DNA from: Flagellatimonas centrodinii | GTDB lineage: Bacteria > Pseudomonadota > Gammaproteobacteria > Nevskiales > Nevskiaceae | Length of the DNA stretch: 64,000 nucleotides | Direction of reading: 5' to 3' | Assembly: GCF_016918765.2 (NCBI RefSeq) | Contig: NZ_CP092104.1 | Span: 1,550,001 to 1,614,000 of the forward strand | In this document: positions 27,855 to 63,137 of the stretch, piece after piece | Numbering within the stretch: the first letter of the stretch is position 1 | Layout of the letters: every line of letters starts with the position of its first letter | Position numbers and translations under genes: made by a program | The notes under the pieces: model-generated | Seen by the model: only the letters and a program-made list of their open reading frames with translations | Told to the model about the DNA's origin: nothing | Database searches by the model: none

Positions 27855-27882
27855 CTGTCGTCCTCCGCGCCCGGGTCAGTCC

Positions 27883-60382: not shown

Positions 60383-60510
60383 TTCGTTGCGAACCCAACA
60401 CGCCCACGGTCATTGCGGTCCCAACATCACCACGTCATGGGGGGCCAACATCACCACTTCATTGCGAGCCCAACGCGCCCACTGTCATTGCGACCCCGAC
60501 ATCACCATTG
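60383..60510 (+). repeat. ladder of five 24-27 bp degenerate tandem units
   Basis: Units start at about 60383, 60410, 60435, 60459 and 60485; each begins with a form of TCATTGCGAG and continues CCCAACATCACCAC. The ladder runs straight into the palindromic element at 60511, whose own first ten bases are the same TCATTGCGAG. No gene lies in 60354-60624. Confidence 0.85.
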
Positions 60511-60603
60511 TCATTGCGAGCCCCGAAGGGGCGCGGCAATCTCACGGGCATGGCAGTGCCGCCCGGAGGAGATCGCCGCGGGGCTACGCCCCTCGCGATG
60601 ACA
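60511..60603 (+). repeat. REP-like palindromic element, copy A (plus orientation)
   Basis: About 93 bp bounded by TCATTGCGAG and CTCGCGATGA, with two inner hairpins (GCCCCGAAGGGGC; GGGGCTACGCCCC) around a GGCAGTGCC centre. Copy B at 61858-61951 is the same element inverted, and a left-half copy is at 63082. The family resembles the widespread TCATTGCGAG...GCAATCTC repeats. Confidence 0.9.
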
Positions 60604-61308: not shown

Positions 61309-61734
61309 ATGCTCACCGCGCACGCCATGCTGCAACCCGTCGTCGCCCTGGTGCTCTGGTCCATGGTCATGTGGCTGTGGATGTATGTCACCCGCATTCC
61401 TGCCATCCAGGCATCACGAATGAAGCTCGATCCCGAGCTCCCCAACGGCCAGCAGATGAGCACCCTGCCGGCCCGGGTGCGGTGGAAGGCCGACAACTAC
61501 AACCACCTCATGGAACAGCCCACCATCTTCTACGCCGCCGCCCTGGTGCTGGCGGTTGTGGGCGATGCCAGTCAGGTCAGCCTCGGCCTCGCCTGGGCCT
61601 ATGTGGGGCTGCGGGTGGTGCACAGCGTATTCCAGGCCACCGTCAACAAGATCGAAGTGCGCTTCGCCATTTTTGCCCTCAGCTCGCTGGTGATGGCGGC
61701 GCTGGCTGTGCGGGCTGCGATGCAGGTGTTCTAG
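61309..61734 (+). CDS. MAPEG family membrane protein
   Basis: 141 residues, four transmembrane helices. KADNYNHLMEQPTIFYAAALVLAV is the conserved glutathione/eicosanoid-metabolism (MAPEG) core, with N, E and YAxxL residues, followed by WAYVGLRVVHSVFQATVNKIEVRFAIF. Members conjugate or reduce lipid hydroperoxides with glutathione; substrate here is unknown. A GGGGAG Shine-Dalgarno at 61296-61301 supports the start. It is followed by the large nested palindrome. Confidence 0.9.
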   Translation: MLTAHAMLQPVVALVLWSMVMWLWMYVTRIPAIQASRMKLDPELPNGQQMSTLPARVRWKADNYNHLMEQPTIFYAAALVLAVVGDASQVSLGLAWAYVGLRVVHSVFQATVNKIEVRFAIFALSSLVMAALAVRAAMQVF

Positions 61735-61745
61735 CCCGCCATTCG

Positions 61746-62060
61746 TCATTACGCGAAGGGCGGAACCCCTACCGTGTCATCGCGAGGGCTGCACCCTACT
61801 TTGTCATCACGAGGGCTGTACCCTGTTTTGTCATCGCGAGGGGCACACCCTACTTTGTCATCGCGAGGGGCCTAGCCCCGCGGCGATCTCGTCCGACCGG
61901 CACTGCCACGCCCATGAGATTGCCGCGCGCCCTGCGGGCGCTCGCAATGACAAAGTAGGGTGCGGTGCTCGCAATGACAAATGAAGGGTGCGGTGCTCGC
62001 GATGACAAATGAAGGGTGCGGTGCTCGCGATGACAACGGAAGGGTGTAGGGCGCGCAACG
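61746..62060. repeat. nested palindrome: inverted 27-bp ladders flanking a 94-bp REP-like core
   Basis: Left arm: units starting 61746, 61777, 61804 and 61831, each beginning TCATCGCGAGG and ending near CCCTACTTTG. Core (copy B, inverted relative to copy A): 61858-61951. Right arm: units starting 61951, 61978, 62006 and 62034, each of type CAAATGAAGGGTGCGG-GCTCGCGATGA, i.e. the reverse complement of the left units. The whole 315-bp gap between the MAPEG gene and the sigma relic is therefore one symmetrical structure, four units on each side, and holds no gene. Confidence 0.92.
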
Positions 62061-62130
62061 CCGGCGGGACTTCGGGTTTTCCGCCGTCGCGCGTATAGGC
62101 TGGATGACGCATCGTTCTGGAGGAAGCGCG

Positions 62131-62430
62131 ATGTCCGACCATCCCCGGGCAGAAGACCCGGTCACACCGGCAGCCGATGCTGCCGACGAGACCCCTCACG
62201 CCCGGGAGCGCGCCCATGCCGCCGTCGTCGCCAATCTGCTCCGCGAGCACAACAAGACGCTGGTGCGGTTTCTGGTCACCCGCCTCAACTCCGTGGCCGA
62301 GGCCACCGGGTGGCGCAGAACCTCGCCATCGACCGCCTGCGTCGGCGCACTGCCCACGGCATGGTGGTGTCGGCCGAGCCGGAGATCATCGAAGCGGCCG
62401 AAAACCTTTGCGACCGACTTCGGTGGTTGA
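62131..62430 (+). pseudogene. remnant of an ECF sigma factor gene
   Basis: The frame from ATG 62131 begins like an ECF sigma factor (VVANLLREHNKTLVRFLVTRLNSVAEA), then at about 62305 jumps: the continuation AQNLAIDRLRRRTAHGMVVSAEPEIIEAAENL is in the next frame. The segment that should hold regions 2.2-2.3 is missing between the two parts, and region 4 (DNA-binding) is absent altogether. So an internal deletion with frameshift and a 3' truncation have destroyed it. No FecR or receptor gene lies beside it. Confidence 0.8.
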
Positions 62431-62586
62431 GGGCGGGGTTTTTCCGCCGCCTTTTTTGCCACGATAGCGGGGCAGTCCGTTTCTCCTCGAAGGGGAGTCA
62501 ATCCTGCAGGGAAGCGTGGCAGTTCAGGCGCCGCTCAGGCGATGCCGGGCAAACTGGAAATTCGTTCTACTGCTTGGAGTCCGGTC

Positions 62587-63015
62587 ATGCATCATCCGTC
62601 CTGGTCGATACAGCTCGTCGCGGGTGTGGGTTTGGCGCTGAGCTTGGCGCTGGTAACTGCGGTGCAGGCGGCGCCGCCGGAAGGCAAAGGCAAGCCGCAT
62701 AAGCATCATGCTGATAGCGCCGTGCGTGGTGTCGACGTGTTGGTCCGTGCCGGGATCGGCGCCGGCGATGCGCGTGCGCTGGCGCTGCAGCATGGCCTGA
62801 CCGGCTATGGCGAGCTGCCGCCGGGTATCCGCAAGAATCTGGCGCGCGGCAAGCCGTTGCCGCCGGGGATCGCCAAGAAGGTGGGTTCGCCGACATTTAT
62901 TCAGGAATTGCCCCGCCACGATGGCTACGAGTGGCGGGTGGCCGGGAATGATCTGGTGCTAGTGTCCTTGGCCTCGCAGGTGATTGCCGACGTTCTGGTC
63001 GACATTTTTCGTTGA
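62587..63015 (+). CDS. CigR/RcnB-like secreted protein
   Basis: 142 residues from ATG 62587. A signal peptide ends VQAA near residue 30; a basic His/Lys patch (GKGKPHKHH) follows; the core GYGELPPGIRKNLARGKPLPPGIAKK is the repeat-like motif of CigR anti-virulence and RcnB-type proteins, and the end is a small beta domain (YEWRVAGNDLVLVSLASQVIADVLVDIF). Role unknown in free-living bacteria; envelope location is likely. Confidence 0.75.
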   Translation: MHHPSWSIQLVAGVGLALSLALVTAVQAAPPEGKGKPHKHHADSAVRGVDVLVRAGIGAGDARALALQHGLTGYGELPPGIRKNLARGKPLPPGIAKKVGSPTFIQELPRHDGYEWRVAGNDLVLVSLASQVIADVLVDIFR

Positions 63016-63081
63016 GGGTGGGGCTTGGCGGCATTCGTGACGGCGTCGCGTTGAAGTTTGGGGCGCGCCGTATGTGTTGTT

Positions 63082-63137
63082 GTCATTGCGAGCCCGCGTA
63101 GCGGGCGTGGCAATCTCGGCCGGTGGGCAGTGCAACG
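63082..63137 (+). repeat. REP-like element, left-half copy C
   Basis: TCATTGCGAGCCCGCG-TAGCGGGC-GTGGCAATCTC matches the left half of copies A and B, with its own hairpin arms, and fades out after a GGCAGTGC-like centre. The right half is absent. Confidence 0.8.

Follow-up and report, generated by a model that had tools for sequence, protein, structure and literature searches.

Half-REP ladders at the ends of a putative TGTC-tagged REP dimer in Flagellatimonas centrodinii

Downstream of a MAPEG-family gene of Flagellatimonas centrodinii lies a nested palindrome in which short units are repeated in tandem on both sides of a hairpin-forming core, the units of one side in mirror orientation to those of the other. 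The locus raises the questions of what kind of element the core is, how its ends came to be amplified and how the two sides came to mirror one another. It was analysed within a stretch of 64 kb (C1:1550001-1614000, hereafter the window) of a 3.6-Mb genome assembled in 2 contigs. The array at 61744-62060 is real, as seen by direct inspection of the sequence and by mechanical repeat finding, which revealed direct repeat families with a spacing of 27, 27 in the left arm and 28, 28 in the right arm and inverted arms of up to 46 nt. TRF reported arrays at 61767-61869 (period 27) and 61940-62046 (period 28). The fold of the array strand, -113.3 kcal/mol, was not equalled by any of 100 dinucleotide shuffles (-63.8 +/- 4.2; z -11.9), and the 12-mer GTCATYRCGAGG with at most one mismatch occurs 12 times in the window versus 1.7 times expected. 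Rfam gave no match on the array; its two miRNA-family matches, both at 63.3 kb, fall below the gathering scores.

The initial annotation described four units on each side of a 94-bp core. Repeated units do flank the core on both sides, but the clean rungs number three to the left and three to the right, the supposed fourth being either a decayed outer rung or the core's own end, and the core measures 97 bp (Table 1). The earlier statement that amplification is confined to the core's ends and runs as mirror images on the two sides was borne out, as was the identity of the MAPEG neighbour. The sigma-factor relic proposed for 62131-62702 found no backing, neither of the two ORFs tested there yielding a Pfam match at E<=0.1. 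Nor does the array quite fill the intergenic gap as had been stated, since the next ATG on the + strand lies at 62104, with another in frame at 62131. A second core of the same family is present in the window, and its left ladder was recorded by TRF at 60387-60523 with period 26 and 5.4 copies; a further end motif lies downstream at 63079-63092.

Table 1 Features of the array and its surroundings (positions within the window)
Feature	Position	Strand	Remarks
MAPEG-family gene, upstream of array	61309..61734	+	PF01124, E 1.5e-25
Outermost left rung, decayed	61744..61774	+	31 bp; 3 mismatches in 12-mer
Left rung 3	61775..61801	+	27 bp, clean
Left rung 2	61802..61828	+	27 bp, clean
Left rung 1, innermost	61829..61855	+	27 bp, clean; linker end CACCCTACTT, same as that of right innermost rung
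Core, predicted to join two different TGTC-tagged REP hairpins head to head	61856..61952	+	97 bp
Left REP monomer, predicted (ATCGC type)	61856..61887	+	TGTC tag; outer stem ATCGC/GCGAT; inner stem GGGGC/GCCCC; alignment columns 1-33
Right REP monomer, predicted (ATTGC type)	61919..61952	-	TGTC tag; outer stem ATTGC/GCAAT; inner stem; alignment columns 68-101
Right rung 1, innermost	61953..61979	-	27 bp, clean
Right rung 2	61980..62007	-	28 bp, clean
Right rung 3	62008..62035	-	28 bp, clean
Decayed outer right rung	62036..62060	-	judged by eye; outside the rung finder's count
Second core of the same family	60509..60603	+	95 bp; two left rungs, at 60457 and 60483

The structure of the core was deduced from its relatives. 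A search of the whole genome for cores and for ladders at their ends, as the initial annotation had proposed, yielded at least 63 cores, and 44 of these entered a covariation alignment after removal of 18 that were at least 93% identical to another and of one that was 109 bp long. Under a model of two separate hairpins, 95.7% of the cells are paired versus 90.1% in shuffles, and 61 cells are changed on both sides versus 16.7, neither value being reached in 500 shuffles, although kinship among core copies can inflate such counts; further pair types (25 versus 24.6) are not raised. When partner columns were slid by 1-3 positions, at most 16 cells changed on both sides remained. One long hairpin across the core received no support, with 3 such cells versus 4.9 in shuffles. 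The seventh base illustrates the difference: it is C at one end and T at the other and pairs inside its own hairpin in 44/44 and 42/44 cores, respectively, whereas across the core the C opposes A in 43 cores and C in one. These data support a head-to-head heterodimer of two separate REP hairpins with outward TGTC tags, in agreement with the earlier description of the core as REP-like. A large cruciform, also suggested earlier, can be drawn from the strand fold, but the covariation favours two core hairpins over one long one.

The ends of the core are inverted repeats of each other. TGTC stands at both ends of the cores in the alignment; the sole variation, in 3 of the 44, affects the outermost base of the right tag. 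This result is partly built into the search, which demanded TCAT and at most two mismatches to TGTCATYGCGAG. In the monomer model the tag is unpaired, and the stem opens with two A-T pairs, both present in 44/44 cores on the left; on the right the first is AU in 40, GU in 3 and unpaired in 1, and the second is found in 44/44, the outer A and T having been required by the search and the inner partners being free. The stems consist of 5 bp, an internal loop and 5-6 bp closed by a loop of mostly 3 nt (range 3-4 nt), and CTC follows the left stem in most of the 44 cores. An ATCGC-type and an ATTGC-type end with tags outward make up 62 of the 63 cores and ATCGC with ATGGC the remaining one, among pairs of the kind that the search sought, single hairpins being left uncounted.

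The family is dispersed. The 315-bp array as a BLAST query matched 91 places in the genome (40 of 73 first-look candidates were scored in this survey), there are 117 occurrences of the 14-mer end motif at one mismatch and none of its reversed pattern, and the exact core pattern is found 52 times. The counted cores, taken from stretches fetched around matches, form 33 clusters separated by more than 2 kb; the counts exclude at least two other copies, located near 656.5 and 1306.7 kb. Rungs are attached to 62 of the 126 core ends, 1-6 per end and 127 in total, and the remaining 64 ends have none; in a false-positive control of the rung finder, 5 of 126 control anchors gave a rung.

Several features of the distribution were observed in passing. 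Within approximately 173 kb around the contig ends (C1 0-66 kb and 3355-3462 kb), which would form one zone if the contig is circular, lie 40 of the 63 cores, and the zone begins inside what appears from its ORFs, by eye, to be an exopolysaccharide gene cluster. The interval from 1.612 to 3.355 Mb contains none of the 50 exact cores listed (of 52), though it has looser copies at 1617 and 1833 kb. Four ladderless cores (C1:960871, 969215, 980292 and 1405546) have flanks that look alike by eye, and in the three that were compared the similarity extends past the core for up to 400 bp at 85% identity, which places those compared within a larger imperfect repeat. A composite unit of approximately 161 bp (rung, core, rung, spacer) is itself repeated in tandem at C1:3383281-3384050, with 4 full copies and part of a fifth. 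At C1:20500-30000 two stretches are apart that lie next to each other, in divergent orientation, in both of the other genomes of the genus; the separating segment, which by eye holds a tRNA-like stretch, lies between the mutually opposite cores 25420 and 27444, an arrangement that fits an inversion between copies of the element.

A rung is half a hairpin: it comprises the tag and the 5' strand up to about the inner hairpin loop, followed by a pyrimidine-rich linker of mostly 4-14 bases as delimited by the extension rule. Rungs originate locally. In a sample of one ladder per cluster and side (33 of the 62 ladders), the innermost rungs matched their own core at 4.27 of the 6 positions 13-18, versus 3.47 with cores permuted (0/5000 as high), and the own core surpassed same-type cores elsewhere in 28 of 32 ladders and lost in 4, one ladder having no same-type partner. 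The locus-specific signal fades beyond about position 16 and is lost at 19, from where own and foreign cores are alike; the 5' arm of the inner hairpin ends at 16-17 in most core ends. Linkers and periods are likewise specific for the locus, linker similarity being 0.54 between adjacent rungs and -0.05 between loci and 43 of 65 pairs of adjacent rungs having the same period (expected 0.15). As certain linkers are shared by loci far apart, such as those at 416 kb and 920 kb, ladders may also travel with cores.

The linkers are unusual in composition. Their pyrimidine fraction is 0.79 versus 0.56 in the outer flanks and 0.57 in the flanks of ladderless ends, and position -1 of the rung is C or T in 97% of the 127 rungs. 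This bias, which recurs in contigs of a viral collection (0.86, see below), would be expected if the ladders were made by a nicking or transposition enzyme that recognises the pyrimidine tract or TGTC together with the adjacent hairpin and repeatedly adds or re-inserts half-REPs, by analogy with the RAYT enzymes that are thought to handle GTAG REPs. The dispersal of the element through the genome would suit such an enzyme, as would several single-rung ladders in which, by eye, the outer flank does not resemble the linker. However, rungs share the sequence of the core to which they belong, a result not expected from a master copy inserted independently at each site, and the REP-associated transposase whose presence had been considered did not appear: the genome contains no match to Y1_Tnp (PF01797), the one class searched, in a search whose control was positive in 5 of 14 known genomes. 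An enzymatic origin is considered unlikely.

The linkers also bear on the possibility that the ladders are deletion scars, that is, head-to-tail arrays of whole cores that lost the core interiors and retained end and spacer. Such whole-core arrays exist, with spacers of approximately 9-11 bp, and before ATTGC-type ends the spacers are as rich in pyrimidines (0.88, n=6) as the linkers there (0.82, n=38). Before ATCGC-type ends, by contrast, they are purine-rich (pyrimidine fraction 0.31, n=10) where the linkers reach 0.78 (n=48), the spacers having been separated from solitary flanks by a simple motif test that left some array spacers in the solitary class. As one spacer cannot be pyrimidine-rich towards both ends, 48 of the 86 rungs, those at ATCGC-type ends, are left unexplained, and this already disfavoured derivation is improbable.

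The rungs decay outwards. In the 17 ladders of at least three rungs the mismatches in the 12-mer increase from the core outwards as 0.29, 0.76, 1.35, 1.67 and 2.0, and among the 26 ladders of at least two rungs the trend rises in 19, falls in none and is flat in 7, with the reservation that a rung finder that begins at the core may favour apparent outward decay. When the outermost rung was dropped the decay was weaker but persisted, 110 of 5000 permutations being as high for ladders of at least three rungs and 29 of 5000 for those of at least four. Rung number varies among close relatives: 23 of 39 pairs of neighbouring cores at least 88% identical differ in it, although there is dependence among the pairs and some may be influenced by array borders, and two identical neighbouring cores carry 3 and 2 rungs. 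In the ladder at 27870 rungs 2 and 3, and not the innermost ones, are most alike, which indicates that growth does not take place strictly at the core.

Do the two ends grow together? A single coordinated copying process for both sides had been envisaged, but the ends behave independently: 16 of the 63 cores have no ladder, 20 a right one only, 12 a left one only and 15 both, which corresponds to an odds ratio of 1.0 (p = 1), and in 14 of the 15 two-sided cores the left and right linkers are unrelated. As the ends acquire ladders independently, the mirror appearance does not call for a coordinated process. The exception is the array locus analysed here, where the two arms are identical at 11 of the 12 positions outside the core; the next best of the 62 other cores reaches 6 of 12, the mean is 3.6, and none of 194 cross-locus comparisons attained the linker similarity of this locus. 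Since the arm match is unique to the array locus, the mirror image is a local extra event, an unusual one, in an orderly structure. Most likely it was made by template switching between the arms, a process favoured here since it is known to render imperfect palindromes more perfect in E. coli (PMC7202029).

Similar arrays were then looked for elsewhere. The exact ladder step, which occurs 53 times in this genome, is absent from all 57 other genomes searched in the family and from all 397 others sampled from the phylum, in a search by exact patterns that would miss diverged ladders; the exact core pattern occurs once each in 2 of these 397. The plasmid collection gave no match to the search, nor did the 315-bp query match either of the other two genomes in the genus. 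These two did not yield an empty site either, as their matches to the MAPEG gene reach only 27-31% and the one alignable region is rearranged. In a collection of viral contigs, by contrast with the sampled genomes, the ladder step occurs in 38 stretches, 32 of which contain 43 sequence-distinct ladders, some of them near-copies of one another and some stretches lying on the same contig. Their period is mostly 24-25 bp (39 of 59 rungs) and the pyrimidine fraction over the last 8 bases of the linker is 0.86 (59 rungs). Half-REP ladders hence recur beyond this genome. Short repeats can be mis-assembled, but an assembly artefact is highly improbable in view of these independently produced contigs, of rungs that are mutually diverged and locus-specific across 33 clusters and of an assembly in so few contigs. 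Topic searches of the literature found no title or abstract describing half-REP ladders, most subscription journals and supplements lying outside their coverage so that absence from print is not established; exact-motif searches returned no title on bacterial repeats beyond PMC3733652 and papers citing its terms, and the available text of PMC12306157 does not mention tandem arrays.

The array might also be functional and kept by selection, its rungs acting as an RNA control element or offering a host protein binding sites in phase. Compensatory changes preserve the core hairpins, and in other species REPs are bound by host proteins, gyrase among them (PMC3733652). The range of rung periods, 23 to 32 bp, keeps no fixed helical phase and argues against a phased protein array, and the outward decay of the rungs, the rungless half of the core ends and the lack of a match to the array in the two other genomes of the genus also speak against selection, so that a function of this kind has a low probability. 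The array probably arose as a side effect of replication at hairpins and would be neither a gene nor a switch.

We infer that slippage is the copying step, and give a probability of about 0.55 to the combination of tandem duplication at each end through hairpin slippage with subsequent template switching between the arms at the array locus. According to this model, the core is a non-autonomous REP-type element of two TGTC-tagged hairpins head to head. At each end the terminal 23-32 bp, made up of the tag, the hairpin's 5' strand as far as approximately the loop and the short pyrimidine-rich linker, would sporadically be duplicated in tandem and so build a ladder. The likely cause would be a polymerase that stalls in the hairpin and slips back. 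Unequal exchange between rungs would follow, each end acting alone and the older rungs decaying at the outside. A second event would have produced the mirror image at the array locus: through quasipalindrome correction, in which the template is switched from one arm of the imperfect palindrome to the other, the innermost linkers of both arms would have become the same. Polymerases do slip in vitro at hairpins between short direct repeats, with deletions and not duplications as the outcome described in the available text of PMC4134008. After a simple tandem duplication a further linker copy would be expected beyond the outermost rung, and the weak signal found there (-0.114 versus -0.213 +/- 0.033 permuted) counts against slippage. 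No linker donor was accepted in seven comparisons (outer flank on both strands and at its near end, flank of the other side on both strands, own core on both strands), which gave weak signals at most, 32/2000 for the near end of the outer flank and 10/2000 for one orientation of the other-side flank as single-test values among the seven. The pyrimidine richness of the linkers is not explained by slippage alone; it is the main weakness of slippage and the main support for an enzyme. The slippage model is drawn from one strain.

The genome offers material for following the process. With at least 63 cores that carry 0 to 6 rungs at ends that vary independently, and with near-identical cores that differ in rung number, the birth of rungs can be tracked in long reads or on plasmids, and in the array locus a bacterial chromosome offers a natural candidate for template switching between arms. 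A wider proposal, which we regard as doubtful, is that TGTC-tagged REP dimers are edge-growing elements to which a process acting on hairpin and pyrimidine tract adds half-REP rungs singly, at either end, in unrelated bacteria and without a RAYT, the ladder being a replication record that ages outwards.

Among known systems, MITEs have terminal inverted repeats, a target-site duplication and a parent transposase; of these features the present element shows inverted repeats at its ends, and the search for a parent covered the Y1 class. Quasipalindrome correction as studied by Klaric et al. (2020, PMC7202029) would make arms that differ agree, and agreement of that kind is confined, among the 63 cores, to the array locus; in that work it was followed with lacZ reporters, whereas here it is read from one static sequence. 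The REPIN/RAYT system (Bertels and Rainey 2011, PMC3116915) resembles the present family in being a dispersed two-hairpin element, some loci of which form ordered tandem arrays, including evenly spaced single REPs. It differs in its link to RAYT, no gene for which was found here, in its repeat units, which are REPs or REPINs with flanks rather than half-hairpins added at the ends of one element, and in the tag, which is GTAG (as given in PMC3733652) and not TGTC. By its sequence features, the nearest known kind is the superfamily of CGTC-tagged REPs (Di Nocera, De Gregorio and Rocco 2013, PMC3733652). The REPs described there have stems of 8-9 bp and loops of 4-5 nt, compared with the two short stems split by an internal loop and the smaller loop of the present element; their short unpaired tail is mostly CCA, in place of which CTC follows the left stem here; clusters are rare among them and common here; and the text of that paper, figures and supplements aside, does not describe half-REP ladders. 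Whether and how CGTC-type REPs without a known transposase still multiply was left open there. Stem, loop and tail unlike those of its four families place the element near the superfamily and inside none of them. The likeness extends to an unpaired tag at one end in which TGTC or CCTC is allowed for CGTC, a stem that opens with A-T pairs, head-to-head dimers including heterodimers, which predominate there, a patchy distribution and the lack of an associated transposase, which the PF01797 result parallels within the Y1 class.
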